Of a stretch of 53,755 nt of DNA, positions 4,812 to 45,066 are shown in pieces. The first letter of the stretch is position 1, and the number at the start of each line of letters is the position of its first letter. Both the position numbers and the translations under genes were made by a program. The notes beneath the pieces were generated by a model, which saw only the letters and a program-made list of their open reading frames with translations, searched no databases and was not told the origin of the DNA. This DNA comes from a virus, in IMG/VR virus record IMGVR_UViG_3300018412_000003, positions 1 through 53,755 of that record; one strand, written 5' to 3'.

Positions 4812-4841
4812 TTTAATACCTCCACGTATTATATTTTTATT

Positions 4842-4870: not shown

Positions 4871-4882
4871 ATGTAAATCTCC

Positions 4883-4910: not shown

Positions 4911-4923
4911 AATCCTATCAGTA

Positions 4924-5343: not shown

Positions 5344-5367
5344 AGTTTTAATCCTCCTATTTTATTA

Positions 5368-5396
5368 CTTCATATAATGATATGTTTTATTCGCGT
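5368..5396 (-). promoter_or_regulatory. 29-bp promoter-like element (copy a)
   Basis: Consensus copy; 24 nt before ATG 5343. Its first base is the last base of the TAA stop of the preceding 71-aa gene. Confidence 0.75.
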
Positions 5397-27744: not shown

Positions 27745-28230
27745 CTATCTTAAGAATTTACCTTTTTGTTGAGAATCGTATGCTTGAACATACCCAAGGG
27801 TTAAATCGTTTGCAATGGTAGCACCAAAAGCTTTGATAACTGATTCTCCAATCGGTTGCTTATCTTTACGGAGTTGATTGTACTTGGTTGTGCCGTAGCC
27901 GCCAAGTATTAAATTCTTAGCAATAGTGCTTCCAACCTTTGTTTTTGATTTATCGCCAGTTATTTTTTTAGCGTCTTTTACTTGTCTATACCCAAGTGTA
28001 AAATTATCTGCTATCTGATTACCAACGCCGATTGCTGCCGATTTTACTCGACCTTTCTTTTGAGCTCTTGCCTGGTTGTATTTCGTATTCCCGTATTTAC
28101 CTATAAGTCGTCCACGAACAACATTACTAACGATTGCGGGTTTCGAACCTGTCCGATGCCCCCATTTCATTCCCTTTTTACCATAATGAATAAGTTCATC
28201 ATTCGGGTGTAAATGATTATATTGCCACAT
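27745..28230 (-). CDS. KGMKWG-tagged structural-module protein with internal repeats (161 aa)
   Basis: ATG 28230. N-terminus MWQYNHLHPNDELIHYGKK then GMKWGHR is the HYG-x-KGM[K/R]WG tag. The rest has three degenerate repeats of about 35-40 residues (NQIADNFTLGYRQVKDAKK; TIAKNLILGGYGTTKYNQ; TIANDLTLGYVQAYDSQQ), basic throughout. Located between terminase and portal. Probably a minor virion component; not an enzyme. Confidence 0.75.
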   Translation of the reverse strand: MWQYNHLHPNDELIHYGKKGMKWGHRTGSKPAIVSNVVRGRLIGKYGNTKYNQARAQKKGRVKSAAIGVGNQIADNFTLGYRQVKDAKKITGDKSKTKVGSTIAKNLILGGYGTTKYNQLRKDKQPIGESVIKAFGATIANDLTLGYVQAYDSQQKGKFLR

Positions 28231-30177: not shown

Positions 30178-31071
30178 TTAAGTAGCTTCCACCGTAACCG
30201 CGAACATTCCGCGCTCGGCGTCATACTCCATCTTCTTATAAGTTAACTTATTTGGAGCTAGTATAGCCTCTTGATTACTTCTAGTATTTACGAGTTTTTT
30301 ACCATCACTCGTAGTCCCGTCAGCTAATAAACCAGGACAGTTTTTAGTATTGATAATCATGTAGGTATTATAAGTTTTAGCCGCCGTTGGGTTAACCTTC
30401 CTCCAAGTATCAATCGCGAACAATGGCGATGTGCTTGTTGAGAATACCCGGTTTTCATTTAAAGATTTTCCTGAGAAATTCTTAGACATTCCGGAAAACA
30501 TATCACCAAGTTCTTTCTCGCTCATTGTATCGAGTTTTTTAGCAAGACCGTTGGTTGAAAACTTTAAATTACAACTTCGGTACACGGTAGTATCACTTAC
30601 CGTATTCTTTTGAAGAGTCTTCTTAAGTTTTGCCGCTTCAGCTGCGTATTCTTTTGGAGTCCCAATAGCTAAAAAACTATTAACGTTTCTTGAATATCGA
30701 GCAGAGTCCGTATAGACCTTTAGATTTTTTAAATCGTTATGATCTAAATTTGAATACTTAGCATCTTTATGTTTTTGTATACCAACACTCTCTATGGCTT
30801 TTAAAGCCTTTTCGTTTTTCGGCAGTTTACCACTCACATGAGTAGAAGTTAATGTTAAATCAGCTAAACTTTTCACGTTATCGTTGGTTCTATTTGTAAC
30901 CTTACGCAGTTTGTATTTGGCTTCTCGAGGGTTCAAATTTGCGCCAATTGCATATATGGTTTTTTCAGCGGTGTTTCTGACATTTGTTAAGTCGACTTTT
31001 TTACGATGACCCCACCGCATTCCCTTCACACCATAGTGGGTTAATTGATTTGTATGATTATACTGCCACAT
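30178..31071 (-). CDS. KGMRWG-tagged ADP-ribosyltransferase-like protein (297 aa)
   Basis: N-terminus carries the tag THYGVKGMRWGHR (11-23). The C-terminal half has the order of ADP-ribosyltransferase motifs: catalytic-type Arg in TVYRSC (R165), STS in VFSTSTSP (211-213) and the loop NTRSNQEAILAP, whose E268 is at the catalytic Glu position, with N266 two before it (N-x-E instead of E-x-E or Q-x-E). It may modify a host protein (as T4 Alt does) or be a virion-borne toxin. Location in the capsid module and the tag suggest packaging in the virion. Activity is inference. Confidence 0.72.
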   Translation of the reverse strand: MWQYNHTNQLTHYGVKGMRWGHRKKVDLTNVRNTAEKTIYAIGANLNPREAKYKLRKVTNRTNDNVKSLADLTLTSTHVSGKLPKNEKALKAIESVGIQKHKDAKYSNLDHNDLKNLKVYTDSARYSRNVNSFLAIGTPKEYAAEAAKLKKTLQKNTVSDTTVYRSCNLKFSTNGLAKKLDTMSEKELGDMFSGMSKNFSGKSLNENRVFSTSTSPLFAIDTWRKVNPTAAKTYNTYMIINTKNCPGLLADGTTSDGKKLVNTRSNQEAILAPNKLTYKKMEYDAERGMFAVTVEAT

Positions 31072-31072: not shown

Positions 31073-31489
31073 TTAGTTACCAGATAATTGTTTCATCATA
31101 AGTGCAATACTTAGAGCCGAACCAACTGCAGTAACAACTCCTCCTGCAACATTTAAAGTAGTTTCAAGAGCTTCTTGCCCTTTCAGTCTTTGTTGCGGTT
31201 GGCGAGTTAAGTCTGCATATTGTCGTTCCATATTAAGTCTCTGAACTTTCGCTTGCAACTCTTTATCGGTCATCTGAGAAAGCCCTCTCGGTTTCCTTTG
31301 AGGAGTATTTTTAATACGCTGTTCTCTGTGTTTTTTCACAGCCGTATTAATTTCTCTACCACCTCTTACAAGACCTCCGGTTTCTTTAACCAACTTATTT
31401 CCGGTTTTTAAATCATCAACGGTTGGCGATTTTCGAACACCCCAACGCATTCCGAGTTTCCCATAATGGGTTAATTCATTTTGTGTCAC
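31073..31489 (-). CDS. KGMRWG-tagged protein with C-terminal membrane helix (138 aa)
   Basis: N-terminus ELTHYGKLGMRWGVRKS. A basic middle (KKHREQRIKNTPQRKPRG), then LSQMTDKELQAKVQRLNMERQYADL and a hydrophobic C-terminal helix (AGGVVTAVGSALSIALMM). I recognise this combination from gut-phage head modules. Possibly a minor head protein or membrane-active cargo. Overlaps the start of the connector gene's 3' end. Confidence 0.75.
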   Translation of the reverse strand: MTQNELTHYGKLGMRWGVRKSPTVDDLKTGNKLVKETGGLVRGGREINTAVKKHREQRIKNTPQRKPRGLSQMTDKELQAKVQRLNMERQYADLTRQPQQRLKGQEALETTLNVAGGVVTAVGSALSIALMMKQLSGN

Positions 31490-31862: not shown

Positions 31863-31897
31863 TTACCATAATTTTGTATCATTCGGACTCCTTTCTA
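31863..31897. repeat. 35-bp perfect direct repeat, left copy (flanks ART-like gene)
   Basis: Identical to 32591-32625. On the minus strand it begins with the ribosome site AGAAAGGAGTCC and reads into ATGATACAAAATTATGGTAA. Here it overlaps the end of the ART-like gene. Confidence 0.9.
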
Positions 31898-32610
31898 CGT
31901 TTTTCATTCTCCAATAAAGCGGTTTGAAGTTCTTGCTCAGATATTTTTTTATTATCAACGATTTTTAAATTCTCTGGAGGATCGAAAACTATTATTGGTT
32001 TTTCAGGTTTAAAAACGTCTAAATCGTTATTCTTAACATCGTTATCATCCAATAACGCGTTATACCCTTTTCGTTTCAATTGTTCTTGGAATAGATCGGC
32101 CACTGGTGTGTTGCTATAAGTCTGCATAAACATCTCATAACCTTTTGTTCTAATTTCTTTATCTTTTAAATTAGAATATTGTTGTGAATAAAAATCGTGA
32201 AACATAGTTCTAACGCCAGAAGGTTCGGTGTAACCTAATCGGGTGACCATCTCATCTGCAATTTCTTTACCGATCAAAACCTTATGATCTTTATAAAACT
32301 CATAAAATTCGTCGGCTTGTTTTTTAGACGATGGATGTTTTATAGCTTTTAAATTCTTATATTCGACCAAAAACATGGGTTGGGAATCATCGACTCTTCG
32401 AAATTTTGTTATGTGTTCTTTATAAAAATTAATATCTTTTTCAGTATAAGCTAAGTATGTTCGGTGAATTTTTGTTTTATTTTCCACAACAGGACTAACC
32501 CGATATAGTGATGTGTTTTTACTAATTCTAGTGTCTACATTTCTAACACCCCATTTCATACCCTTAACGCCGTAGTGAAGCAATGATTTGTTACCATAAT
32601 TTTGTATCAT
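31879..32610 (-). CDS. KGMKWG-tagged ADP-ribosyltransferase-like protein, cassette (243 aa)
   Basis: ATG 32610 with AAAGGAG. Tag LLHYGVKGMKWGVRN at 10-24. Then TSLYRVSP (Arg-motif candidate, R37), TYLAYTEKDINFYKEH (STS-position analogue) and a C-terminal module KGYNALLDDND... EKPIIVFDPPENLKIV, which I associate with ART-fold proteins of phage head modules. No clear E-x-E. The gene is enclosed in 35-bp direct repeats, so it looks like an exchangeable cassette. Function is tentative. Confidence 0.6.
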   Translation of the reverse strand: MIQNYGNKSLLHYGVKGMKWGVRNVDTRISKNTSLYRVSPVVENKTKIHRTYLAYTEKDINFYKEHITKFRRVDDSQPMFLVEYKNLKAIKHPSSKKQADEFYEFYKDHKVLIGKEIADEMVTRLGYTEPSGVRTMFHDFYSQQYSNLKDKEIRTKGYEMFMQTYSNTPVADLFQEQLKRKGYNALLDDNDVKNNDLDVFKPEKPIIVFDPPENLKIVDNKKISEQELQTALLENEKRRKESE

Positions 32611-33783: not shown

Positions 33784-34035
33784 TTATGAAGCTTTCGTTT
33801 CATCAATACAAACTTTTCTATAGCGATCCATAAAGTCTAACTCAATGATTTCATCGATCGCTCTCTCAATCTCCAAAGCATTCTCTTCATCAGATAGTTG
33901 ATCAGCAGTTCGAGCAATCCTTGCAAGATAGGAGCAAGAGTTATAACCTTTAGTTAGATCAAACATATACCAAGAATCGAATTGTTCAAATGGATCATAA
34001 GGATTATCAGTAGTTGTTAATGCACATCGTTTCAT
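33784..34035 (-). CDS. Conserved small protein accompanying the RNAP-like gene (83 aa)
   Basis: ATG 34035 with AAAGGAG. MKRCALTTTDNPYDPFEQFD, WYMFDLTKGYNSCSYLARIA and EIERAIDEIIELDFMDRYRK form a pattern I know from the same position in related phages. No enzyme motif; might be a structural or regulatory partner. It is the last gene before the structured non-coding region. Confidence 0.8.
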   Translation of the reverse strand: MKRCALTTTDNPYDPFEQFDSWYMFDLTKGYNSCSYLARIARTADQLSDEENALEIERAIDEIIELDFMDRYRKVCIDETKAS

Positions 34036-34048: not shown

Positions 34049-36835
34049 TCATTGATTAAGATACTTAAACACTGTCGATACAGACTTACCTAATCGTGAA
34101 GCTATCTGTTCATTAGTGTAACCACTTTGTTGCATAGCTTTGATACGACTAATAGAAGCGGGGGATAGTTCAGTGGTAGCTCTGGGTAGTGCTCTCTCCT
34201 TAAACTTATCCTCATCAGCATAACGTAGTAACTGAGCTAACTTATTATCAGTGATAGCGCCAGCTTGTATGGCTTCCCATTCTTTATCTGAGAAGACTAT
34301 CTTATCTGCCTTGCTATTCAATCCGACAGCTGCTCGTGCATCCTCCATAGCCTGCTGATATATCTTCTTAGATTCTTTCTTATCTTTGACCAGCTCAGGA
34401 TATTCCTGCTTCTTAGCTTTAAGGACTCCATTAGCAATTATCCTAGCCTGTCTTTCTTTGGGAGCATTCATTGCAGCGATATTAAGTCTAGCATTTAACG
34501 CTTGAACTTCATTGTCATATTTTATACGGGCTTCTTTAGAATATGTTAAGTTACCTGTAGACTTATATAATTTCCTAGCTTCATTCGCTAAAGCTTTCAT
34601 CTTATTTGCATAGTCAGCATATGCATCTTCTTCTAAAGTTCCAGAAGATAAAGACTTAACATCATCAACTGCTAATACCAATTTAACTTTAGACTTAGCT
34701 TTGATCATATTTCCAGTCTCGACGCTTTTACCTGTAGCTTTATCTTTAACAATTTCTTTATATTCTCTACCAGAAGTCTTATATGTCACAACACCTGTAT
34801 CTGGATCAATAACGCCGCTACCTTTACGCTCATCAACGTCAACGGTTTGCTTTCTACGAGAGAGTAACGTAGACGCACCATATTTTTCCTTACCATTTTC
34901 GTCATACTGTAACTGATATTCTTTCTTAAGTTCTTTGATACGATTAACCTTTTCGGATTCTTTATAATCCAATTTATGTTTCTCAGCATCAATAACGACC
35001 ATACTATGCTTGATAGCTCTCGTTAACTTCTCATCAGAAGCGCCCCTTAAAGTCATATCAGTAATAAGATTTGATACGATACCCATTTCTCTTTGAGTGT
35101 TCTCTTTAGTCATGACTTTAGATAAAATTTTCTTACCGTTGTACAGTGGAGTCTTATCATCAGGACCTTTCTTCACATATAAAGTGTCTTCAGTCTTGGG
35201 TGGGAATGCTGTCTTTCCATCAAAGTCTATAAGCCCAGATAATCGAGCTTTAGATTTAACATGAACCTTTGATGATTCTGGAATAACAATTACTTGATCG
35301 CCATCGAAGTCGGCTCCAGATAATCTTTCAGCAACGTTTGGGTGTATACCAACAGCGTCTTTAACGTTGGTTCCAAGAACTCTTCTGCCTTGAGCATTCT
35401 TATTGTTAACTGTTAATTGCGGGATCTCAAATATACCACCATGAGGATATCGAACAAGAGATACCTTTTCACCATCTTTAAAGTTTGGCGCGTAGATTTC
35501 CTTATCAGATATACCGGTCAAGGGTAATATAACCTGAGTTTTCTGTCTTGGTAGTGCAGCCGCTTTAAGATGAACAGCTTTACTTTCACAGTTACCAGCA
35601 AAATCTAATAAGAGTTTTTTCTTAATAGTCGGATTGGTTAAAGAGTTCAACTCATCTAAATATGCTCGAGCATCGGCATATGTTAGATTCAACTGTTTAT
35701 TGATTAGCTGCATTGGTTGTTTAGATAAGAACTGAGAAGATAAGTTTTCAGACATCTTATCCCAGTCACCTTCTTCTTTCAACTTGTTGATAGCTGAAAG
35801 TTTTTCTTTACCATCTTTGTCAATATAGGTACTCTGACCTTGAGCCTTAATATACGCTCCAAAAGGGTTCGACTTATCAGATTTAACTTCTTTCAAAGTA
35901 TCTAGCTTAGGCGTTCCAGACTTCTTATTTGTGTTAAATACGATATCAACGCCATCCGGCATATCATCGGAATATAAAGCCATACCCTTAAGGTAATGAG
36001 TGCCGTCAACTAATATACGAACCTGAGCATAACTAGATGTTCCAAGATCTAAATCTTTAACACCTCGCCTTAACTCAATAGTTCCATCTTTAGCAGCGCC
36101 ACCTTGATCTCCATATCTAACATGAATTCTTTTAGAATCAACACTAGCTGGATATTTCTTTTGACTAAAGGTGTCACCACCATCTTTGGAATGATAGTCA
36201 CCAACAGACTGAACGGTTTCCATCTTCGCATAAGCATCGGCATACGGAACATGACTCTTAGCTAATATAGCTGTGTTGGACTGCCTACCAGGTTTAGACA
36301 TATCTGGTATTCCAACTTTATAAACATTATAACCTTCCGTCTCGAGGGTAAATAACGCTTCTTTAAGAGTTAATTTAGATACACCAAGAACTCTTTCAAC
36401 ACCTGCACCAACTTCAAGCATGTCACCCTTCTTCTCGAGTTCTTTCTTGAGAATCTCAGCAGTTACTTTAGCTTTATTCTTATTAGCTGCGGTATTATCG
36501 TTCAATAAAGATCTTACAGATGAGTCATTTTTAAAACCCATAATCTGAGATATCTCTTGTAAACTCTTACCGTCAGCTCTCAAAGATTTAGCTCGATCTC
36601 TTTGTAATTCGCGTCGCTCATGATTGGCAACTCTCAACTGCATTCTTAAATCGGTTGTCGACATACCTAAAATATCAGCTAAATCTTTTTGAGAAATACC
36701 ATTCTTAGAAAGTTCTTCAACTCGACTAAGAAAGTCTCCACTATGTTGATATGGATTCTTACCAGACCCCCAAGGATATCGGCCTGAATGTTTCTTAGTT
36801 CCAACATGTTCTAACTCATCATCGAAATAATACAT
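34049..36835 (-). CDS. RNA-polymerase-like two-barrel protein (DFDGD motif) with HTH domains and HSGRYPWGSG tag (928 aa)
   Basis: N-terminus LEHVGTKKHSGRYPWGSG (8-25) resembles the tags of virion proteins. Two HTH motifs follow (ISQKDLADILGMSTTDL, 47-63; SLQEISQIMGFKNDSSV, 91-107), and another is at the C-terminus (TNEQIASRLGKSVSTVFKYL). The core has YLKGMALYSDDMPDG (281-295), VSLVRYPHGGIFEIP (458-472) and LSGADFDGDQVIVIP (505-519), then IKHSMVVIDAEKHKLDY (608-624). These match, in order, the first barrel, the RNP-like strand, the DxDGD metal site and the following helix (lAxxHSxAVDxxKxG) of RDR/YonO-type two-barrel RNA polymerases. I infer a single-chain DNA-dependent RNA polymerase, possibly carried in the virion. 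Its stop lies 13 bp before the 83-aa gene. Confidence 0.75.
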   Translation of the reverse strand: MYYFDDELEHVGTKKHSGRYPWGSGKNPYQHSGDFLSRVEELSKNGISQKDLADILGMSTTDLRMQLRVANHERRELQRDRAKSLRADGKSLQEISQIMGFKNDSSVRSLLNDNTAANKNKAKVTAEILKKELEKKGDMLEVGAGVERVLGVSKLTLKEALFTLETEGYNVYKVGIPDMSKPGRQSNTAILAKSHVPYADAYAKMETVQSVGDYHSKDGGDTFSQKKYPASVDSKRIHVRYGDQGGAAKDGTIELRRGVKDLDLGTSSYAQVRILVDGTHYLKGMALYSDDMPDGVDIVFNTNKKSGTPKLDTLKEVKSDKSNPFGAYIKAQGQSTYIDKDGKEKLSAINKLKEEGDWDKMSENLSSQFLSKQPMQLINKQLNLTYADARAYLDELNSLTNPTIKKKLLLDFAGNCESKAVHLKAAALPRQKTQVILPLTGISDKEIYAPNFKDGEKVSLVRYPHGGIFEIPQLTVNNKNAQGRRVLGTNVKDAVGIHPNVAERLSGADFDGDQVIVIPESSKVHVKSKARLSGLIDFDGKTAFPPKTEDTLYVKKGPDDKTPLYNGKKILSKVMTKENTQREMGIVSNLITDMTLRGASDEKLTRAIKHSMVVIDAEKHKLDYKESEKVNRIKELKKEYQLQYDENGKEKYGASTLLSRRKQTVDVDERKGSGVIDPDTGVVTYKTSGREYKEIVKDKATGKSVETGNMIKAKSKVKLVLAVDDVKSLSSGTLEEDAYADYANKMKALANEARKLYKSTGNLTYSKEARIKYDNEVQALNARLNIAAMNAPKERQARIIANGVLKAKKQEYPELVKDKKESKKIYQQAMEDARAAVGLNSKADKIVFSDKEWEAIQAGAITDNKLAQLLRYADEDKFKERALPRATTELSPASISRIKAMQQSGYTNEQIASRLGKSVSTVFKYLNQ

Positions 36836-37398
36836 TAAGCCATACCCTCCTCAATCTTTATTTTGGTAATGATTTTATCAAACGTAACCATTTTATCAAT
36901 CACATAACGAATATCATCCTCATCAGGATTATGAATCAGAATATCATCATTCTGGTAAATACGTAATTCGATATTAATATCTTTTGGATCGATCACATAC
37001 TCCAAACAGAATAACGCGGTATAAACTTCAAGCTGTTCCATATGTCCTGGAATAACTCCGGTTTTCAGATCATGAATTCTCAAAGTATTATTAGCAAAGG
37101 TTATAGCGTCAGCTGTTCCGAAACAATTGTCTGAGAAATATAAGGTTTGTTCTGGAATCATATGAAAACCTATAGCGTCATTTACATAAGCATTTAAAGT
37201 CTTCTTGGATTTTGGTAACTTCTGTTTCAAAGAAATACATCGAGCCGCAAAGTCATGAAGCTCAGTTCCTTTTCGACTTGCCAAGAATCTTAAATATGAA
37301 TCTGCAACTTTATTTTCGTCATAATTTATCCAGTGATATTTACTCGCTCCAAGAAAAGCGTGACTACCCTCAAGATTGAAATGCTTGTTGAAGATCAT
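36835..37398 (-). CDS. Cas4/RecB-like PD-(D/E)XK nuclease (187 aa)
   Basis: Start ATG 37398 (AGGAGG 6 nt upstream); a longer frame to 37497 lacks a ribosome site. GTELHDFAARCI (G-x-x-x-H), FGTADAITF, LRIHDLKTGVIPG (D-x-K catalytic pair) and MEQLEVYTALF (QxxxY) make up a RecB/Cas4-type nuclease core. Cys residues for an Fe-S cluster are not obvious. Probably DNA processing in recombination or host DNA degradation. Overlaps both neighbours. Confidence 0.88.
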   Translation of the reverse strand: MIFNKHFNLEGSHAFLGASKYHWINYDENKVADSYLRFLASRKGTELHDFAARCISLKQKLPKSKKTLNAYVNDAIGFHMIPEQTLYFSDNCFGTADAITFANNTLRIHDLKTGVIPGHMEQLEVYTALFCLEYVIDPKDINIELRIYQNDDILIHNPDEDDIRYVIDKMVTFDKIITKIKIEEGMA

Positions 37399-37675
37399 GG
37401 AGCACCTCCTCTTTATTGTTTGGATCGATGAATCTAGAGAAGGACATCTTATCCATGATGTCAACGTAATATTTTTGGTTCGGTTGTCTTTTAGCACCTT
37501 TCGATTTCTTACATTCCAAAGTCGCCCATTTATTTTTGTACAAAATCAAGAGATCGGGTATTCCTTGAATATGACCTGAATCTAATTTTGTTACAATACA
37601 ACCTTCAAACATTTGTTTTAACTCTTTGATGAGTTTTGATTGAAAGTTTTTCTCCAACACTTTATTACCTCGCAT
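37370..37675 (-). CDS. VRR-NUC-type endonuclease (101 aa)
   Basis: Start ATG 37675 (GGAGG upstream). FQSKLIKELKQMF, VTKLDSGHIQGIPDLLIL and WATLECKKSKGAKRQPNQ give the E...D...E-x-K catalytic pattern of the small phage VRR-NUC nucleases. Structure-specific DNA nuclease, perhaps for replication intermediates. First gene of the operon behind promoter-like element l. Confidence 0.88.
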   Translation of the reverse strand: MRGNKVLEKNFQSKLIKELKQMFEGCIVTKLDSGHIQGIPDLLILYKNKWATLECKKSKGAKRQPNQKYYVDIMDKMSFSRFIDPNNKEEVLHDLQQAFQS

Positions 37676-37755
37676 AGATAAATCCTCCACATAAAGTTTA
37701 AAAAGTTTAGAGAGTGATACTAGTAACTTCTAAAAAAGTTCACATTCTATCCTCC

Positions 37756-37784
37756 CTCTATAAAAGGGCGTGTTTTTTTCGCGT
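37756..37784 (-). promoter_or_regulatory. 29-bp promoter-like element (copy l, diverged)
   Basis: ACGCGAA and ACA conserved; the downstream half is TTTTATAGAGG instead of TTATATGAAG. It lies upstream of the nuclease/RNAP-like/structural genes, about 80 nt before the first start. Confidence 0.55.
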
Positions 37785-37800
37785 GGCTGATTTTAGACTA

Positions 37801-37825
37801 AAAAGAAAAGAGTCTTTTACGACTC
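37801..37825 (-). terminator. Intrinsic terminator; stop codon in its loop
   Basis: GAGTC-GTAAAA-GACTC followed by TTTTCTTTTT on the minus strand; loop TAA is the stop of the 98-aa gene. Confidence 0.75.
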
Positions 37826-38113
37826 CATCTTCTTTGATATAAAAATTTGATTGTTCACTTTTTCAAACTTTAACTTATCAAAAGTTTTTGTAAGCTCTTG
37901 AATCATTACATCAATGTCTACAACAGAGTTTCTTACCGATACTTTAACATCGTCGCCAATATATCTATAGCTTACGCCTTCCCAATATTTGGAACGTATG
38001 TACACTTTAGTTATTACCAGCGATATTAATTCAGCGCCAATTATTCTGTCAAAAGACATCTCATAAAAATATTTCTTCACAAACTGCTTTTTGATTTCTT
38101 TTAAATTTTTCAT
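37817..38113 (-). CDS. Hypothetical protein in a cassette unit (98 aa)
   Basis: Start ATG 38113 (TACGTGGAGGTACGAAT leader); a longer frame to 38299 would run through the promoter-like element. Helical N-terminus (KNLKEIKKQFVKKYF) and a beta-rich middle (VSYRYIGDDVKVSVRNSV). The C-terminus VNNQIFISKK faintly resembles the 90-aa protein at 3903-4175. Same promoter-gene-terminator architecture as the 1-5.4 kb genes. Unknown function. Confidence 0.7.
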   Translation of the reverse strand: MKNLKEIKKQFVKKYFYEMSFDRIIGAELISLVITKVYIRSKYWEGVSYRYIGDDVKVSVRNSVVDIDVMIQELTKTFDKLKFEKVNNQIFISKKMES

Positions 38114-38136
38114 ATTCGTACCTCCACGTACTTTTA

Positions 38137-38165
38137 TTTCATATAACGCTTTGTATTTTTCGCGT
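38137..38165 (-). promoter_or_regulatory. 29-bp promoter-like element (copy j)
   Basis: ACGCGAA, ACA, TTATATGAAA; 23 nt before ATG 38113. Confidence 0.72.
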
Positions 38166-38276
38166 ATGTAAAAGTCCACAAAATCACCATTAATCTGACA
38201 AAAATTCAAAAAGAAAATACTTTGCAAAATTTGACGACCGATTCGTACAAAAAATTGCCAAAAATCACTCGTGGCC

Positions 38277-38537
38277 AAAAACCCACTTTTGTTTGCCATT
38301 CTTTATATATATTATTAACTTTTCTCTCACATTAGTGTAAAAGAAAAGTGGGTTTTTGACCAAGGCCCTTCAAACGGCTCTAATAAGCCAAAGTTCGTGG
38401 CCACTTTTGATTTTAAAAGTGGGCAAATGCCCACTTTTTTTGGCCATTTCGCGAATTTTTTCGATTTTTTCATCAATTTTTACTCCAAATTTCATCAATT
38501 TTTGTCTCTGCCCACTTTTGCATTTTTAAAAGTGGGC
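38277..38537. other. Repeat-rich, AT-rich intergenic region (candidate replication origin or control region)
   Basis: The 450 bp between 38114 and 38564 holds no convincing gene. AAAAGTGGG or its complement CCCACTTTT occurs six times: 14-bp perfect inverted arms 38277-38290 and 38344-38357 around a TATATATATTATTAA tract; an 11-bp hairpin AAAAGTGGGCA/TGCCCACTTTT (38415-38438) followed on the plus strand by TTTT; and a 10-bp hairpin 38510-38537. TTTCATCAATTTTT occurs twice as a direct repeat (about 38467 and 38490). Confidence 0.6.
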
Positions 38538-38564
38538 AGAAAATTGACCATTTTTACTACTTTT

Positions 38565-38810
38565 TCACAAAATTGTCCCTGTAACAATTATATCACAAAA
38601 CTCCAAATCATGCTCCAAATCACGCCCTTTTATCAATAATTCGACCTTATCCACCGACATTTGTAAACCTTCCGTATTAGATACTTCCATCGATATTAAA
38701 GACTTTACGAACGCAAATTTAGTCATCACATCAACATCGTATGGTCCGAAATGTACACGAATGGTAAATGACTTATCAGGTGATAAATCAACTTCCAGCC
38801 ACTCTCTCAT
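38565..38810 (-). CDS. Hypothetical protein (81 aa)
   Basis: Start ATG 38810, whose ATGA overlaps the stop of the preceding membrane ORF. Beta-rich (FTIRVHFGPYDVDVMTKF, VELLIKGRDLEHDLEF). Not recognised; the last gene before the repeat-rich intergenic region. Confidence 0.65.
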   Translation of the reverse strand: MREWLEVDLSPDKSFTIRVHFGPYDVDVMTKFAFVKSLISMEVSNTEGLQMSVDKVELLIKGRDLEHDLEFCDIIVTGTIL

Positions 38811-38911
38811 AGTGCTCCATACAATCCAAATAACATCCCGAGTCCGAAACAAAATCCAGTAGCATAAACCAACCAACCAATCCCCACCAATATCTTTGTT
38901 CTAGTCGTCAT
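38807..38911 (-). CDS. Tiny membrane protein (34 aa)
   Basis: ATG 38911 behind GCGAGGAATTTACT and overlapping the preceding stop by ATGA. MTTRTKILVGIGWLV then a GF/GL-rich hydrophobic helix (FGLGMLFGLYGAL). Its first 15 codons are nearly the same as the tiny ORF at 39204-39251. Unknown function. Confidence 0.6.
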   Translation of the reverse strand: MTTRTKILVGIGWLVYATGFCFGLGMLFGLYGAL

Positions 38912-39207
38912 AGTAAATTCCTCGCTTTCCTAATTTTATTGTTAAGATTACAGACGTTTGGCTGCATCTTAAAATACTCTCTCATCTTCGGCCTGTTGTA
39001 TACACCATCAAAATGTTTCACATCCTTCCCAATATAGTAGTTGTCAAACAGTTCATAAAAAGCATCCTCTATTGGTTTCATCATTGTATATGAAAAGCTT
39101 TCAAACGCATCTGCGAAACATTCCCAAAGAGCCTTTGTCGATTCATAGCAATCTTGAAGAATAATACTCGCCTCATGAGAATAACCCATTAACTCGAATC
39201 TATTCAC
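38908..39207 (-). CDS. Hypothetical protein (99 aa)
   Basis: Start chosen as GTG 39207, which overlaps the TGA of the 15-aa ORF (GTGA), matching the coupling in its neighbours; TTG 39216 and ATG 39189 are alternatives. Helical, aromatic (MNRFELMGYSHEASIILQD; MKPIEDAFYELFDNYY). Not recognised. Confidence 0.6.
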   Translation of the reverse strand: MNRFELMGYSHEASIILQDCYESTKALWECFADAFESFSYTMMKPIEDAFYELFDNYYIGKDVKHFDGVYNRPKMREYFKMQPNVCNLNNKIRKARNLL

Positions 39208-39251
39208 AACAACCAACCAATCCCAATCAATACTTTTGTTCTAGTCATCAT
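39204..39251 (-). CDS. Truncated paralogue of the tiny membrane protein (15 aa, possible leader ORF)
   Basis: MMTRTKVLIGIGWLL, then stop. The DNA parallels the start of the gene at 38807-38911 over about 45 bases. GAGGAGG ribosome site upstream; its TGA overlaps the GTG of the next gene. Possibly a coupling peptide left by partial duplication. Confidence 0.45.
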   Translation of the reverse strand: MMTRTKVLIGIGWLL

Positions 39252-39378
39252 CCTTTTCAGCCTCCTCGAAATGACTCTCATTACAACGACTTCTCAAGAC
39301 ATTACAATCATCACAAGGAGATTCGTAGGCGCACTTCTTTTCATGTATACAACAACCACAAGTTTCCACACTATACAT
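39241..39378 (-). CDS. Cysteine-rich mini-protein (45 aa)
   Basis: ATG 39378 behind GAGGTAACTG. Seven cysteines in 45 residues: VETCGCCIHEKKC, CDDCNVLRSRC. Likely binds zinc. Part of the chain of tiny genes. Unknown function. Confidence 0.6.
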   Translation of the reverse strand: MYSVETCGCCIHEKKCAYESPCDDCNVLRSRCNESHFEEAEKDDD

Positions 39379-39386
39379 CAGTTACC

Positions 39387-39476
39387 TCACTTCAACAAAT
39401 ATCGAACGATCAAAACAACGCCCCAGATACCACCAGTAGCAAATACCAAAAATGTATGTAACAATACTTTACCCAT
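39387..39476 (-). CDS. Tiny membrane protein (29 aa)
   Basis: ATG 39476 behind GGAGGAATTCATA. One helix: MGKVLLHTFLVFATGGIWGV then VLIVRYLLK. Its start overlaps the stop of the upstream ORF (TAATG). The tail pattern resembles small superinfection-immunity-type helices; unproven. Confidence 0.55.
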   Translation of the reverse strand: MGKVLLHTFLVFATGGIWGVVLIVRYLLK

Positions 39477-39592
39477 TATGAATTCCTCCTTTTCTTTTCA
39501 TCAGAATAATCCTCAAGCAAATCTACAATGCCAAATCCAATCATAGAAATACCTATACCACCAAACAACACCGTCCAAGCTGCTTCCATCAT
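39476..39592 (-). CDS. Tiny membrane protein (38 aa)
   Basis: ATG 39592 (ATGATG), overlapping the stop of the upstream ORF by ATGA. WTVLFGGIGISMIGFGIV helix and a charged end. Unknown. Confidence 0.55.
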   Translation of the reverse strand: MMEAAWTVLFGGIGISMIGFGIVDLLEDYSDEKKRRNS

Positions 39593-39726
39593 TTCTTTTT
39601 ACTCTTTCTATAGAATTCTAAAAGGGTCTGAGTAACCATCCCAATAAATAACCCGGTAATGATTACTATGATGATAGTTCCACAAACAAAGAATACGGAC
39701 GAGAAAATATCACTCAACAAACTCAT
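39589..39726 (-). CDS. Small membrane protein (45 aa)
   Basis: ATG 39726 overlaps the stop of its upstream neighbour (ATGA). SVFFVCGTIIIVIITGLFIG helix, then a basic tail KSKKK. Unknown. Confidence 0.6.
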   Translation of the reverse strand: MSLLSDIFSSVFFVCGTIIIVIITGLFIGMVTQTLLEFYRKSKKK

Positions 39727-39845
39727 TGGTTTCTCCAACTCTTAATAAAGTTACGAACCACAGTTACAATAGTCAAACCAGTAAATACGATCACTGCGAT
39801 ACCAGCACATACCAATACAACGTCAACAAAATATTTTAGCATCAT
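39723..39845 (-). CDS. Small membrane protein (40 aa)
   Basis: ATG 39845 with GGAGGGTTTACAA. One helix (VDVVLVCAGIAVIVFTGLTI) and a basic end (FIKSWRNQ). First of the chain of overlapping small membrane ORFs, paralogous in style to the next. Confidence 0.6.
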   Translation of the reverse strand: MMLKYFVDVVLVCAGIAVIVFTGLTIVTVVRNFIKSWRNQ

Positions 39846-40074
39846 TTGTAAACCCTCCCACTCTCTTTGTTACGAATACAAACCCGTCCGTCAAACTCGA
39901 AACTGCAACATTACAAATATAACGTAGAGTCCGAAGCAACTTTTTAAACTCTTCTTCTTCCTCATCGATATTCTGAATAGCGTTGTATGCAGTCAGATCA
40001 CTACAACCAGAAGCGTTTTTTCTAGGATCTTTCTCTTTAAATAAAATTCTGTCTTTTTTAAACTCGTTATTCAT
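39823..40074 (-). CDS. Hypothetical protein (83 aa)
   Basis: Start ATG 40074 (GAGAGG site), overlapping the previous stop. Charged N-terminus (MNNEFKKDRILFKEKDPRKN), acidic middle (IDEEEEEFKKLL), and a hydrophobic segment near the end. Not recognised. Confidence 0.6.
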   Translation of the reverse strand: MNNEFKKDRILFKEKDPRKNASGCSDLTAYNAIQNIDEEEEEFKKLLRTLRYICNVAVSSLTDGFVFVTKRVGGFTNDAKIFC

Positions 40075-40414
40075 TAAGCAATTCCTCTCGTTCAATAGCC
40101 CACTCCTCTAAAGGACAACCATAATCGTCAAGTTTCTCAACACAACTTTTTTCAGCACCGCCTTCACGATATTTGAGACTTCGCACCATGAAATCATAAA
40201 TGGTCGGACTGAAGCCAGTATAAAATTGTTTTAATCTCTTCTTACCAAATCCCAATTGTTCTCGCAACTGAACCATCATCATTGCTTCAATCTCTAGAAG
40301 ATTTCGACCGACAAAATCTAAAAGCTGATCCTCGATCTCACGATTCATAGCGTCCTGCTCAGCCCGAGTAAATTTAACTTTCGTATGTCCCCTTTTGTTT
40401 TTACGCATCTCCAT
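40067..40414 (-). CDS. Conserved hypothetical protein (115 aa)
   Basis: ATG 40414 with AGAGAGG. FTRAEQDAMNREIEDQLLDF, EIEAMMMVQLREQLGFGKKR and LEEWAIEREELL. Helical; I have seen similar sequences in replication modules of gut phages but know no function. Confidence 0.7.
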   Translation of the reverse strand: MEMRKNKRGHTKVKFTRAEQDAMNREIEDQLLDFVGRNLLEIEAMMMVQLREQLGFGKKRLKQFYTGFSPTIYDFMVRSLKYREGGAEKSCVEKLDDYGCPLEEWAIEREELLNE

Positions 40415-40429
40415 AATAATTACCTCTCT

Positions 40430-40603
40430 TTAATTAATAACCTCAACGAATCGACAATGTAGAATATCGCCACCATCCAAACCAAGTTCTTCCAAACGGT
40501 TAATTGCCGTAGATATATTTGTGAATAAAGCTCCACCAACAAATGATTGAAGGATCTCAACCACTTGCTGAGGAGCGTTACCGTCTGTAAAAACTAATAC
40601 CAT
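40430..40603 (-). CDS. Hypothetical protein (57 aa)
   Basis: ATG 40603 immediately follows the stop of the ThyX-like gene (TAGATG). VLVFTDGNAPQQVVEILQSF and a beta-rich C-terminus (ILHCRFVEV). No ribosome site beyond coupling. Not recognised. Confidence 0.6.
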   Translation of the reverse strand: MVLVFTDGNAPQQVVEILQSFVGGALFTNISTAINRLEELGLDGGDILHCRFVEVIN

Positions 40604-41242
40604 CTAAAAATAACTCGGTCTTTCCGTAATCAGTTCGCTATGTGGAAGTCCCTCGATAACTTCACAAAGTCCATGCCACTCGTCCAGCTTATGGTTCTTA
40701 CGATCCCGATATATCGGAGTAAGCACCTCGTAATTTAACATGACCGTACGTTTCTGATTATAAGACGATGGTAAGAGTTGAATCATCTGCCACCAATCGT
40801 TTTTATCGCCACCGTGAATATATTTTTCTCTAGCTCTGTTTAACATGACAATTGTATCCAACATGAAATGTTCATTTTCCGCATCAAGATGTTCCGAACT
40901 GAAATCCTGTAAATAAAATCTTTTAGCATGAATCTTATGCATAGTCGAGCAGCTATTAGCAACCGTACCAACTTTGTATGTGTCAAACTCTTTCCACCAA
41001 TATAGTGGAGCCGTGATATCCATATACACAACGATCATACGTTTAAACTTACCATGCACGGGGCCGCCGTTTGAAAGGTTTTGCATTGTCTTTAGATCGT
41101 TTTCACCAACGACAAAAGTGGCATCAAGATCTAAACCATATTCAAAGCAGCTATCACTCTTATCCCAACTATTCATAGGATTACGCATACCTCGAATCGC
41201 ATGTCTCAAACCAACAACTTCTACCTCTTCAATTTTAATCAT
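40604..41242 (-). CDS. Thymidylate synthase (ThyX)-like protein (212 aa)
   Basis: Contains RHAIRGMRNPMNSWDKSDS, GPVHGKFKRMIVVYMDITAP, WWKEFDTYKVGTVANSCST split over two segments, and DDWWQ-like KNDWWQMIQLLPSSYNQKRT. The order resembles flavin-dependent thymidylate synthase (substrate-loop HxxR, S-x-N-x-x-S region), but the RHR core is not conserved. If active it would make dTMP; it may be a divergent paralogue. It sits among nucleotide genes (dCMP deaminase, DUF5664, HAD). Confidence 0.55.
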   Translation of the reverse strand: MIKIEEVEVVGLRHAIRGMRNPMNSWDKSDSCFEYGLDLDATFVVGENDLKTMQNLSNGGPVHGKFKRMIVVYMDITAPLYWWKEFDTYKVGTVANSCSTMHKIHAKRFYLQDFSSEHLDAENEHFMLDTIVMLNRAREKYIHGGDKNDWWQMIQLLPSSYNQKRTVMLNYEVLTPIYRDRKNHKLDEWHGLCEVIEGLPHSELITERPSYF

Positions 41243-41269
41243 TTGTTTAATTCCTTTCTAAAACTACTA

Positions 41270-41533
41270 TTAAATATTATACTTCAGTCTTACCATTTTA
41301 CTAACACTATCAAGATAAAATTCTTGAATATCAGCTTTGTAAAGCGTACTACAGTCGATCATGACTTTATAGTCTTCACATATTTTATATATCCGACCAG
41401 TTATCGGTAAAACAACTTCATCGGTTTTATAGAACTCCACAGTTACCAAATCTCCTACAATAAATTTATTGTCAGATGTCGGAAACGAAATAACCAATTC
41501 GTTGTGGATAACCATTGCGCAATCCTTATACAT
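41270..41533 (-). CDS. Hypothetical beta-rich protein (87 aa)
   Basis: Start ATG 41533 (GGAGG within the upstream gene); the alternative ATG 41548 is five codons up. IVGDLVTVEFYKTDEVVLPI and GRIYKICEDYKVMIDCS suggest an SH3/Tudor-like barrel, similar in style to the 80-aa protein at 43012-43254. Unknown. Confidence 0.65.
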   Translation of the reverse strand: MYKDCAMVIHNELVISFPTSDNKFIVGDLVTVEFYKTDEVVLPITGRIYKICEDYKVMIDCSTLYKADIQEFYLDSVSKMVRLKYNI

Positions 41534-42281
41534 ATTTACATCCTCCATGATCGCTACTCTTAGTATAAATTAAACCATCAGATATAGACTCAGTATACTC
41601 CGGAAGGTCGATTTCAATACTCTTGTTTTTACACTTACAAATACGTCCTTCCAATGATAATAATCGTTCGACATCTTTTTCGGTATGACCATCCCATTCC
41701 TTACCACGATCTAACTCGGCACATTTGAACATGTTCCAATATTCCATTTGGTAATGATAGGTATAAGATCCTTTAGGGGTATCAATACCTACGATAAACC
41801 ACTTTCCATCAAAACATAACTTCCCGTCTGAATGTCTTCGAGATTTCCAGGAAGATTCTTTGAATAAGTTGCATAATGTAGCAAATAAGACTCTTCGTTG
41901 AGCGTAAAGACCGTTGAACGTATGATAACCATCGCTCACTTCACCAAGATCCCTCACGAATGGTAATGTGAATCTTTGAGATGCTTTATCGTCTATATAC
42001 TCATCGGCATATATCTTTCTCTGATCACCACCAAAAGCGTTAATAATCTCAGGGACATTCTTGTTAACCGCATCGAAAAATAAATCATGACGATTACACC
42101 AGTCAACAGCCTCGATTAACCGCAATCCTGTACGACAAGTCCAGAGAATAAGTTTGTTACCTTTAAGTTTCTCGCCCTTCAAATAATTAATGAACTCGGT
42201 ATTAGGTAATCCAATATCTGGAAAACGATTTTCACACAATGTACCATCAAAGTCTACAGCCAAAATTTTGAATTTAAACAT
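41526..42281 (-). CDS. HAD-like phosphatase with C-terminal WDGHT domain (251 aa)
   Basis: Motif I VDFDGTLCENRFP (near 10), motif II-like LILWTCRTG (T), and motif IV ADEYIDDKA (DD): a HAD hydrolase of the BT0820-like group. The C-terminal 100 residues hold the unrelated phage domain with ELDRGKEWDGHTEKDVERLL. Probably a nucleotide phosphatase acting with the neighbouring nucleotide genes; the fusion partner's role is unknown. Confidence 0.82.
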   Translation of the reverse strand: MFKFKILAVDFDGTLCENRFPDIGLPNTEFINYLKGEKLKGNKLILWTCRTGLRLIEAVDWCNRHDLFFDAVNKNVPEIINAFGGDQRKIYADEYIDDKASQRFTLPFVRDLGEVSDGYHTFNGLYAQRRVLFATLCNLFKESSWKSRRHSDGKLCFDGKWFIVGIDTPKGSYTYHYQMEYWNMFKCAELDRGKEWDGHTEKDVERLLSLEGRICKCKNKSIEIDLPEYTESISDGLIYTKSSDHGGCKYV

Positions 42282-42484
42282 TACATATCTCCTATTTGAT
42301 CAATTAATTCGATTTTTATTATGATACTTTTATGAAAACTATCAACATCATTCTTACAATACTTCTCAGCTTTTAAAAAAGCTTCTCCAATATTTTCAGC
42401 GAATACATCAAGCTTTTCAATATGACCAGAGTATTTGTTTATCAGTTGAACACTTACTTCATAGTGATTTTCTATAAGATTCAT
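42281..42484 (-). CDS. Hypothetical protein (67 aa)
   Basis: Start ATG 42484 (GGAG 9 nt upstream); GTG 42490 also possible. YEVSVQLINKYSGHIEKLDV and FLKAEKYCKNDVDS, mixed alpha/beta. Overlaps the HAD gene start. Unknown. Confidence 0.65.
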   Translation of the reverse strand: MNLIENHYEVSVQLINKYSGHIEKLDVFAENIGEAFLKAEKYCKNDVDSFHKSIIIKIELIDQIGDM

Positions 42485-42486
42485 AC

Positions 42487-42999
42487 TCACTCACTCCACT
42501 CAACATAAGTCTGCGGTAAATCACCATCACAAATATCATTGAAAGCTTGTTCGTACTGAAGCGCTTGTTGTGGTGTTAGAGCACCTTCAATTCTGAAATA
42601 TACGTTTTTATACGAATACTCATACTGAAAGAATGGTCCAGACGTACCAACAATCTGATGTAAATAACTTATGCGGTTTTGAGCATCTGCCTCGTTATCA
42701 AACACCTCAAATGTCCCACCCAACGGAGGCGCTTCAAATAAGGTAATCTGTTTTAACCGGCTATCAGCAAAGGTGGTCTTACTCGTATATGCTCCAGGAC
42801 GTCCCAACAAATGGTTAAGATCGCTCTCAGCAGTATAATCCTCAACCTCACCAATCGGATAACCGGCATCTACAAATATCGCAACCAATTCAGATGATGT
42901 CATGTTAGTCACGTCTAACTTATTTTCATCAACTTTCGAACACCCACTGAGTCCAGCAACCATCAACACAACTCCTAATAAAATCATTAACTTCTTCAT
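42487..42999 (-). CDS. Predicted lipoprotein (170 aa)
   Basis: Signal peptide MKKLMILLGVVLMVAGLSGC with lipobox L-S-G-C (C20). The mature part contains MTSSELVAIFVDAGYPIGEV, LLGRPGAYTSKTTFAD and a C-terminal ALTPQQALQYEQAFN, resembling small lipoproteins of Bacillota hosts. An exported lipoprotein in a phage could block superinfection; alternatively an acquired host gene. ATG 42999 with AAAGGAG. Confidence 0.85.
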   Translation of the reverse strand: MKKLMILLGVVLMVAGLSGCSKVDENKLDVTNMTSSELVAIFVDAGYPIGEVEDYTAESDLNHLLGRPGAYTSKTTFADSRLKQITLFEAPPLGGTFEVFDNEADAQNRISYLHQIVGTSGPFFQYEYSYKNVYFRIEGALTPQQALQYEQAFNDICDGDLPQTYVEWSE

Positions 43000-43011
43000 T
43001 ACGCATCTCCT

Positions 43012-43254
43012 TTAAACTTTTTGAATATATAGATCGTCTGTAAGGACGAAACTTAATCGTTCCGGTTTCTTATGACCGCAATCTGCAGCTAAACATCCAC
43101 TAATAATGAATTTAACTCTTGGTTGATGTTGCTTATTAAGATCTGTTTTAACACCAACTAATCTTCCACGAACCTCATGATTAGATTCGTATTTAGACCA
43201 ACACACAACCACAATATCACCAACCTCATACAATTCCCCCGCAACCTTAAACAT
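43012..43254 (-). CDS. Hypothetical SH3-like protein (80 aa)
   Basis: ATG 43254 with AAGGAGG. YEVGDIVVVCWSKYESNHEV, GRLVGVKTD and VKFIISGCLAADCGHKKPE, probably a small barrel with three cysteines and a histidine near the end. Unknown. Confidence 0.65.
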   Translation of the reverse strand: MFKVAGELYEVGDIVVVCWSKYESNHEVRGRLVGVKTDLNKQHQPRVKFIISGCLAADCGHKKPERLSFVLTDDLYIQKV

Positions 43255-43256
43255 AA

Positions 43257-43778
43257 TTAATCCTCCTTATCTACATACATCTTGAATTTCTTACCGCCAG
43301 CTAAAAATGTAAATTCATCTTTATCGCATACGTAATAACTCAACACAGAAACACCGCATGTTACGAATAACATTTTAGCTACTTGTGTAGCGTCTGAATC
43401 TGGATACTTATCTTCTTTGAATATTACTTTTCTGATTCCGGCTTGAATAATAGCTTTAGCACATTCGTTACATGGGAAATTAGTAACATATAATGTCGAA
43501 CCTACTAAAGACCGACCATCGCAATTAAGAATGGCGTTAAGCTCTGCATGACAAACATACGCATATTTAGACTTGTCAAAAGCTCCTTCTCTACACCAAG
43601 GCATGTCATCGTCATCACAACCAATTGGCATACCGTTATAACCAGTAGACAATATGATATTACGATCATTAACGATACAAGCACCAACTTTAGTGTTTGG
43701 GTCTTTACTCCGTTTGGCTGCAAGTTCAGCAACCCCCATAAAGAATTCAGACCAACTAATATAATCTTCACTTTTCAT
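43257..43778 (-). CDS. dCMP deaminase-like cytidine/deoxycytidylate deaminase (173 aa)
   Basis: Zinc-deaminase motifs CHAELNAIL (H-A-E) and PCNECAKAIIQAG (PCxxC) plus SKDPNTKVGACIVN and GYNGMP. Converts dCMP to dUMP, feeding dTMP synthesis and giving the phage its own pyrimidine supply. Start ATG 43778 lies in the end of the preceding gene. Confidence 0.95.
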   Translation of the reverse strand: MKSEDYISWSEFFMGVAELAAKRSKDPNTKVGACIVNDRNIILSTGYNGMPIGCDDDDMPWCREGAFDKSKYAYVCHAELNAILNCDGRSLVGSTLYVTNFPCNECAKAIIQAGIRKVIFKEDKYPDSDATQVAKMLFVTCGVSVLSYYVCDKDEFTFLAGGKKFKMYVDKED

Positions 43779-44157
43779 TTTCCTTCTCCTTTAATCTGCT
43801 AGGAATATCCTGCATACCGGGTCTCAACTCCTCCGTCTCGGCCAAACACATCAAATTCCAAATAGCAGCAATCAAATGATCCTCATCTGTATCCCCTGCC
43901 ATATATCGTAAGTAATGACGTAAGGCCGAGTCTGCAAAACTGTGACAAGGAATACCTAATTCCCAATTACGATCTCCATATTTTAGAGAACCACTTTCAA
44001 AGTGTCTAGCCAATCGCAATAATGCATTTGGTGGCAATAAATCACAACGTCCTTTTCCCTGATGCATGTCTCTTACCGCGCCTGTTTGGAACTTTGTACG
44101 GTTACCTGAGTCTTTAATTGGTTTGATGTTATCATAATTATCAAATGTATCTATCAT
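43768..44157 (-). CDS. DUF5664-type dATP/dGTP diphosphohydrolase N-terminal-like protein (129 aa)
   Basis: GAVRDMHQGKGRCDLLPPNA, ALLRLARHFESGSLKYGDRN and HYLRYMAGDTDEDHLIAAIW match the DUF5664 family seen in many phages. Charged residues E, H, D are arranged like a MazG/HD-type nucleotide hydrolase but activity is unproven. ATG 44157 with AAAGGATAT. Confidence 0.85.
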   Translation of the reverse strand: MIDTFDNYDNIKPIKDSGNRTKFQTGAVRDMHQGKGRCDLLPPNALLRLARHFESGSLKYGDRNWELGIPCHSFADSALRHYLRYMAGDTDEDHLIAAIWNLMCLAETEELRPGMQDIPSRLKEKENEK

Positions 44158-44173
44158 GTAAATATCCTTTCAT

Positions 44174-44205
44174 AAAAAAAAGAAAAGAGCGCTTGTTAGC
44201 ACTCC
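44174..44205 (-). terminator. Intrinsic terminator after the 92-aa gene
   Basis: GAGTGCT-AACA-AGCGCTC (one G-U pair) followed by TTTTCTTTTTTTT on the minus strand. Same design as the 1-5 kb cassettes. Confidence 0.8.
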
Positions 44206-44223
44206 TTCTCATTTTCAAATTCT

Positions 44224-44502
44224 TTAGATTTCTTGTTTTGGTTTTTCAAGTTTCTTTTTAACCAAGTATTCTTTAATCTTTTTACCTGTAAAATATCCAC
44301 CAACAACACTTACTGCTCCGATAGCACCTCCACAAATAACTCCTGTAGTAAAACTAACGCCAACTTTCTTTGTTAAGTCTGCGATAGTATGCTTACAATC
44401 TGTAATTATAAGATCTGCTTCGTCCAGTAATGTCTCCAGCATTTCAACAGTTAAGTTTGAATCCTCAACACCTGTCTCTAAAACTTCTTTTACTTCATCC
44501 AT
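44224..44502 (-). CDS. Small membrane protein in a cassette unit (92 aa)
   Basis: ATG 44502 with AGGAGG. Acidic helix first (EVLETGVEDSNLTVEMLETL), then one membrane segment (GVICGGAIGAVSVVGGYFTG) and a basic tail KKIKEYLVKKKLEKP. Promoter-like element and terminator of its own. Unknown. Confidence 0.75.
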   Translation of the reverse strand: MDEVKEVLETGVEDSNLTVEMLETLLDEADLIITDCKHTIADLTKKVGVSFTTGVICGGAIGAVSVVGGYFTGKKIKEYLVKKKLEKPKQEI

Positions 44503-44526
44503 TACAATATCCTCCTAAAATTTATT

Positions 44527-44555
44527 CTTCATATAATGCCATGTTAAATTCGCGT
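44527..44555 (-). promoter_or_regulatory. 29-bp promoter-like element (copy k)
   Basis: ACGCGAA, ACA, TTATATGAAG; 24 nt before ATG 44502 and immediately downstream of the BRO gene stop. Confidence 0.75.
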
Positions 44556-44556
44556 A

Positions 44557-45039: not shown

Positions 45040-45066
45040 TTTTTTTTTCGTACCTCCACGTACTTT

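Follow-up and report, generated by a model that had tools for sequence, protein, structure and literature searches.

Whether a phage that encodes a candidate RNA polymerase next to its virion genes also uses this enzyme to read its own early genes, and how it would do so, is the question raised by an open reading frame (ORF) at positions 34049-36835, minus strand, of the IMG/VR virus record IMGVR_UViG_3300018412_000003. We analysed the whole stretch of 53,755 nucleotides, referred to below as the window; a 123-nt exact repeat is common to its two ends, and the window therefore probably represents a complete circular genome of 53,632 bp. The ORF forms one clean reading frame with an ATG start and encodes 928 amino acids, which an initial annotation, made from the letters alone, had proposed as a candidate single-chain two-barrel RNA polymerase. 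We found that the modelled protein almost certainly has the two-barrel polymerase fold and that the window carries repeated copies of a compact promoter-like element, which, judging from its placement and its co-occurrence with the gene, is quite likely the cognate promoter of this polymerase. Our confidence in the fold, in the promoter assignment and in the packaging discussed below is a matter of judgement and was not computed.

Fold, active site and family of the polymerase

No polymerase was recovered when PDB sequences were searched with the single sequence, and a profile search of the same sequences found P23-45 gp96 alone (E = 0.36), over the DxDGD stretch. Because these searches gave no or only a weak polymerase match, a comparison of folds was needed. 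The AlphaFold model of the whole protein had a mean predicted local distance difference test score (pLDDT) of 86, with residues 1-24 mostly below 50, and the core, residues 226-645, was modelled with a pLDDT of 93.3 and a predicted template modelling (TM) score of 0.86. Using the core, we obtained 26 Foldseek matches in the PDB at E ≤ 1e-3, and all 26 were two-barrel RNA polymerases, the single-chain ones aligning over about 500 columns; the full-length model recovered the same polymerase families. The matches included QDE-1 (2j7n_B, E = 1.4e-10, TM 0.51 over 513 columns), RDR2 (7eu1_M, TM 0.52), P74-26 gp62 (E = 4.8e-8) and P23-45 gp96 (E = 1.1e-5), and also AR9 and plant Pol V. A beta-like barrel is followed by a beta-prime-like barrel in one fold, and the two double-psi barrels on which the proposal of a single-chain polymerase had been staked are thus both present in the model.

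To the strings quoted in the initial annotation, which all occur in the order and at the residues it named (YLKGMALYSDDMPDG at 281-295, VSLVRYPHGGIFEIP at 458-472, LSGADFDGDQVIVIP at 505-519, IKHSMVVIDAEKHKLDY at 608-624 and HSGRYPWGSG at 16-25), we added conservation among 157 full-length homologues from viral contigs and bacterial genomes, filtered for the N-terminal tag described below, and a separate alignment of 115 sequences. Among the 157, residues D509, F510, D511, G512, D513, K283, R462, P464, H465 and H620 were invariant, and so, or nearly so, were R256, R273 and K304, which with K283 are candidates for the basic residues that the first barrel would contribute. As the key residues are invariant, the motifs are not chance occurrences. 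DFDGD (residues 509-513; 35297-35311, minus strand) is predicted, from conservation and the fold match, to bind the catalytic Mg in the second, beta-prime-like barrel; the first, beta-like barrel has its segment with Lys283 at residues 252-301 (35933-36082, minus strand), supported by conservation, the core model and Foldseek; and the conserved helix IKHSMVVIDAEKHKLDY after the second barrel (34964-35014, minus strand) appears from conservation and the core model to occupy the place of the bridge helix. From these residues we infer catalysis. The helix-turn-helix (HTH) domains, the tag and the annotation as HTH protein in most actinophages would also suit an inactive relic of a polymerase serving as a DNA-binding structural protein; with every catalytic residue invariant in homologues down to about 46% identity with the query, we consider this extremely improbable.

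QDE-1 and plant RDR2, the best fold matches, likewise combine both barrels in a single chain, with the same order and with DxDGD, but they are only about 12% identical to the window protein and act in eukaryotic RNA silencing, and the HTH domains and tag of the phage protein fall outside the core matched to them. That they are the closest solved folds could suggest that the phage enzyme is RNA-dependent and acts on RNA, for example by making double-stranded RNA, a reading that also agrees with the label of its protein family, PHROG 4291 ('RNA-dependent RNA polymerase'), and with a weak match to the Pfam RdRP family of RDR and QDE-1 (PF05183, 17.4 bits, E = 0.0019), which lies below the curated cut-off of 23.8. 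However, QDE-1 has also been solved with DNA templates (7y7r, 7y7s and 7y7t), the assayed phage relatives of the fold, YonO and P23-45 gp64/gp96, use DNA (PMC5467207, PMC10770324), and the promoter-like elements provide a partner at the DNA level, so that an RNA-dependent role seems very improbable.

YonO of Bacillus phage SPbeta is likewise a single-chain two-barrel phage RNA polymerase with DxDGD. The initial annotation had called the window protein RDR/YonO-type, which holds for the superfamily, given the fold matches to QDE-1 and RDR2, but not for the family: profile comparison with YonO by hhalign gave a probability of 0.2%, and membership of the YonO family was rejected. The comparison with P23-45 gp64 gave no sequence relation either. 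Since its profiles link to neither, the window protein is, at the level of sequence, a separate family within the single-chain clade of two-barrel polymerases described in PMC10770324. It is not a new protein: the PHROG 4291 profile matches residues 5-927 with 1121.7 bits (E = 0). Homologues below 60% identity were found by tblastn in 250 of 50,697 phage records, from phages of Arthrobacter, Gordonia, Streptomyces, Lactococcus, Curtobacterium, Microbacterium, Rhodococcus and Faecalibacterium, mostly annotated as HTH protein; a further search showed relatives on 510 viral (IMG/VR) and 131 bacterial-genome (GTDB) stretches, many of the latter probably being prophages of gut Clostridia. The polymerases of the reference phages, whose hosts belong to different phyla, are 37-51% identical to the window protein, and members such as the 'putative RNA polymerase' of Faecalibacterium phage FP_oengus and gp94 of Arthrobacter phage Mudcat share its gene order and N-terminal tag with no essential difference. 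In the literature searched, neither a promoter nor a virion role was described for PHROG 4291.

A promoter-like element and its reader

A repeat search of the window revealed a 33-nt element, TACGCGAAWWWWACA-N5-TTATATGAAG. Its general form is TCGC-N3-WWTTACA-N5-TATAATGAGA, with the window form CGCGAAWWWWACA-N5-TTATATGAAG, and its spacing is fixed. A weight-matrix scan gave 12 copies scoring 33-46 bits, with five shuffled versions reaching no more than 3 bits. Every copy is on the coding strand, within 1951-5397 or 37753-44556, and the scan gave no copy in the virion and lysis module, although this makes up 53% of the genome. One copy, at 37753-37785 (minus strand), is a divergent one before the polymerase operon, which begins with a VRR-type nuclease gene (37370-37690, minus strand) followed by a Cas4-like exonuclease gene (36835-37497, minus strand), both identified by domain and conservation scans. 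The others, likewise on the minus strand, lie at 38134-38166, 44524-44556, 5365-5397, 4839-4871, 4504-4536, 4204-4236, 3843-3875, 3580-3612, 3305-3337, 2216-2248 and 1951-1983. The idea that the polymerase transcribes early genes gains support from this distribution, as early genes and the polymerase operon carry the element and virion genes lack it.

We searched other polymerase-carrying phages for repeats de novo, without using the window motif, and the top repeat had the same fixed-spacing architecture in five phages with hosts in Firmicutes and Actinobacteria: CGCGTAAATTACACGGGCTATAATGAGA in Arthrobacter phage Mudcat (7 copies), TTTAAGTTTTACATACCCTATAATGAGA in Lactococcus phage P078 (10 copies), CGCACTAATTACACGCCCTATAATGAGA in Gordonia phage Secretariat (10 copies), CGCGTAAATTACAGGGCTTATTATGAGA in Microbacterium phage Camille (6 copies) and CGCACGTTTTACATGCTTTATAGTGAGA in Streptomyces phage HotFries (5 copies). 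The middle part of FP_oengus, whose early region sits near the record start, contained no such repeat, and with the record ends added the element was present. The element differs in sequence from the intergenic repeats that have been reported for Gordonia phage CaiB. A leave-one-genome-out scan of seven genomes gave 55 matches, every one of them on the coding strand. The matches begin where the tail and lysis module ends, apart from one weak FP_oengus match inside the virion module.

The same placement was seen on a larger scale. At 111 loci of the polymerase, taken from viral contigs and bacterial genomes, the strand of the polymerase held 269 matches and the opposite strand 4; shuffles made with a dinucleotide model gave 8. 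The element lay upstream of the polymerase in 110 of the 111 loci and 800-1500 nt upstream of the gene in 107, which is the place where the operon of VRR nuclease, Cas4 and polymerase starts (typical copy CGCGAAAAAAACATGCCCTTTTATGAAGAGAGA). As outside controls, a 30-kb piece of SPbeta gave 1 match and a 16-kb piece of P23-45 none. Conversely, a strict pattern of the element alone retrieved 107 stretches from IMG/VR, and the polymerase was encoded by 42 of 50 contigs from this search, by 35 of 37 at ≥40 kb and by 27 of 27 at ≥50 kb, in comparison with 0.5% of phage records; the co-occurrence is partly shared descent, which inflates the counts, and they therefore show linkage, not recognition.

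The flanks of 125 distinct instances held little information apart from a T ahead of CGC and GAGACCCC behind the element, and a start codon followed at a median of 23 nt. The distance from WTTACA to TATAATGA was 5 nt in 21 of 21 cases, and spacers of 0-4 and 6-8 nt were not seen. In the 125 instances the best match to a -35 box was no better than in shuffled sequence, and plain sigma-70 promoters were rejected on this ground.

Since the element tracks the polymerase gene and sits on its operon, and since the protein has three HTH motifs, the polymerase itself would be the simplest reader. Two N-terminal motifs and a C-terminal one had been noted in the initial annotation, and Pfam and PHROG matches agree with this. 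The C-terminal motif (residues 889-927; 34055-34171, minus strand) matches HTH_38 (E = 3e-8) and Sigma70_r4_2 (E = 1.3e-6) and resembles sigma-70 region 4; the N-terminal pair (residues 39-117; 36485-36721, minus strand), also seen in the AlphaFold model, gave weaker matches at about 39-72 and 65-117. In the scans made, the polymerase was alone in showing recognisable HTH domains among the window genes present in all six reference genomes. A fact that weighs against reading by the phage enzyme is that in most relatives the -10-like part is identical to TATAAT, the -10 box of sigma-70, and is correctly placed. This leaves room for a host sigma-A promoter at which a phage activator replaces the -35 contact, as in T4 middle promoters, the polymerase then having another job such as late transcription; YonO has been reported to transcribe late genes, its promoter being left undetermined (PMC5467207), and other conserved small proteins (33784-34035 and 53337-53717) could be the activators. 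Yet TTATAT, at the -10 position of 11 of the 12 window copies, and TTTTAT, found there in the polymerase operon copies of relatives, are poor sigma-A boxes, the element recurs with the same spacing across hosts of different phyla, no other gene conserved in all six reference genomes showed a recognisable HTH in these scans, and the late genes of the window have no copies of the element. We hold the activator explanation to be improbable, and favor recognition of the compact promoter by the phage polymerase through its three HTH domains.

Two other repeats were observed near the element. Terminator-like hairpins with a T run, AGAGTCTTAACAGACTCTTTTCTTTTT, recur at 1718-4920, 37799-37837 and 44178-44216 of the window, and several end directly at a promoter-like element, giving small transcription units. 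A second repeated leader, GTACGTGGAGGTACGAA, at 1680-4836, 38108-38138 and 45040-45070, precedes seven genes and has a ribosome-binding site inside a GTAC...GTAC repeat, a possible means of translational control.

The N-terminal tag and a proposed delivery of the enzyme

If the polymerase reads the element, its targets would be the early non-virion genes and, with positive feedback as the result, the VRR/Cas4/polymerase operon that encodes it. Such early promoters need polymerase before it can be made, and for this reason we propose that a few copies are carried in the head and reach the cell together with the DNA; promoters on early genes that include the operon of the polymerase fit an enzyme delivered in this way. 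The second ground is the N-terminal tag (residues 8-30, LEHVGTKKHSGRYPWGSGKNPYQ; 36746-36814, minus strand), which is largely disordered in the model and nearly invariant in homologues. Its family consensus, HYG..(K/P)RRSGRYPWGSG, is as conserved as the active site in the tag-filtered set of 157, and in an unfiltered count 160 of the 164 homologues for which upstream sequence was available had the motif. Directly downstream of the polymerase gene, which the annotation had placed beside the virion genes, lies the virion module with terminase, portal and capsid/protease genes, and between the polymerase and portal genes four head-module proteins, all on the minus strand, carry an N-terminal DUF7211 tag (PF23847, H-Y-G-x-x-G-M-K/R-W-G) according to Pfam: 27745-28230 (HYGKKGMKWGHR), 30178-31071 (HYGVKGMRWGHR), 31073-31489 (HYGKLGMRWGVR) and 31879-32610 (HYGVKGMKWGVR). 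L-x-H-Y-G is common to this tag and that of the polymerase. In 78 related loci we found 176 ORFs with DUF7211-like tags, all on the polymerase strand, and no such tags in reversed or shuffled proteins. One portal protein (PF04860, L157:18172-19827) has a DUF7211-like tag fused to it at residue 424, an example and not a rule, as it is 1 of 37 portals checked, and a 276-aa non-polymerase protein in L066 carries a tag of the polymerase type. These resemblances support the tag as a putative head-loading signal, and we somewhat favor packaging of the polymerase in the virion.

Precedents exist for a virion enzyme. In Thermus phage P23-45, whose gp96 matches the window protein in fold, as does P74-26 gp62 among the non-virion enzymes (P23-45 gp64/P74-26 gp62), gp96 is carried in the virion and reads pre-early genes from promoters of its own (PMC10770324). 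However, gp96 is fused to the tape measure, whereas the window polymerase is free, tagged and encoded beside head genes; gp64 has no family-level sequence similarity to it, and the promoter of the Thermus phage enzymes is a different one. The crAss-like phage phi14:2 also carries a two-barrel polymerase, gp66 (6vr4), in its virion, but this has 2166 amino acids and matched the window protein weakly in Foldseek (E = 0.07).

Further points count against this proposal. A search of the literature at our disposal found no biochemical, transcriptomic or virion-proteomic data. The profile match between the polymerase tag and the DUF7211-like tag is merely suggestive (hhalign 78.6%, 10 columns), and the polymerase tag has no Pfam match to DUF7211, so that the name was rejected for it. 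Many relatives are prophages, which have no virion enzyme at induction, and some host-driven start must therefore exist. The element on the polymerase operon could equally serve an enzyme acting purely after entry, made from a transcript read by the host and using the same early or middle promoters, with the element as a feedback switch and the tag anchoring the protein, for example, to the membrane or replisome. The host-driven start needed by prophage members would suit such an enzyme, as would an internal RRSGRYPWGTG in a non-head protein of locus L041. Against it, the tag resembles those of proteins whose genes lie around those for terminase and portal, one of them portal-fused, and in the genomes looked at the gene adjoins the head module or a record end that adjoins the head module. 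We regard a non-virion polymerase as unlikely, but as a serious alternative. Taken together, a DNA-dependent polymerase of the two-barrel superfamily, encoded by the phage in a single chain, reading its own early promoter and packaged in a few copies, is in our view a reasonably likely joint explanation.

Several tagged proteins departed from the usual arrangement. The L041 protein (L041:5174-6154) has RRSGRYPWGTG at residue 143, without the HYG part, and is an exception to the head-module association. A prophage homologue (L138:9983-12688) has a degenerate N-terminal tag, IDNGMPKCSDLCTG, with the polymerase frame open throughout. HotFries gp56 (L173:40511-43240) is annotated from 40664 and its conserved frame begins near 40511, so that the annotation omits the tag. 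Secretariat gp15 (L176:31-1383), annotated as an acetyltransferase, has a DUF7211-like tag mid-protein. In one homologue (L088:2113-5235) a 2H-phosphoesterase domain (PF13563, E = 2.4e-6; residues 1-165) is fused ahead of the tag; among the proteins with a 2H fold are anti-defence enzymes of phages, which cleave nucleotide signals. The pre-tag sequence of another (L055:8-2911) looks by eye like the end of a GNAT acetyltransferase. Finally, a 202-aa ORF (G032:C1:2572-2865) matches the polymerase only at residues 6-101, covering tag and HTH; its phage encodes the complete polymerase as well, and the ORF is a possible free-standing relative of the N-terminal domain.

Neighbouring genes and possible meaning for the phage lineage

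Adjoining the polymerase gene, an 83-aa protein (33784-34035, minus strand; PHROG 4303) is conserved in 6 of 6 reference genomes and may be a partner of the polymerase. Elsewhere in the window, at 5810-6790 and 11849-16270, repeated units of the form VHIQNxGWxxWxxxGxxAGTVGxGxRIEAI are common to the endolysin and a 1473-aa tail-region protein and are probably binding modules; the repeats of the tail and endolysin genes (D1, D2 and D6) were rejected as regulatory as they are coding repeats.

Our literature searches on the tag, DUF7211, virion proteomes and the promoter found nothing relevant, and neither the phylum-spanning promoter nor the tag relation was found described there. As a tentative picture, for which we would claim slightly less than an even chance, the data may represent a widespread lineage of tailed phages, mostly of about 40-90 kb and with Firmicutes and Actinobacteria hosts, that carries a portable kit for early transcription: a two-barrel polymerase with built-in HTH promoter readers, a promoter spanning phyla and an N-terminal signal of the DUF7211-like class by which the polymerase, along with other effectors, is loaded into the head to be delivered with the DNA. 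This polymerase is present, under the label 'helix-turn-helix protein', in hundreds of sequenced phages, of which many are kept as laboratory isolates. If the head-loading role of the tag is true, it would explain DUF7211 and give a handle on the proteins that such phages inject. If the promoter assignment is true, it would provide a predicted promoter for a family of single-chain two-barrel phage polymerases and allow initiation to be tested directly in a minimal relative of cellular RNA polymerase, and a compact polymerase and promoter pair working in both Firmicutes and Actinobacteria could serve as an orthogonal expression tool.

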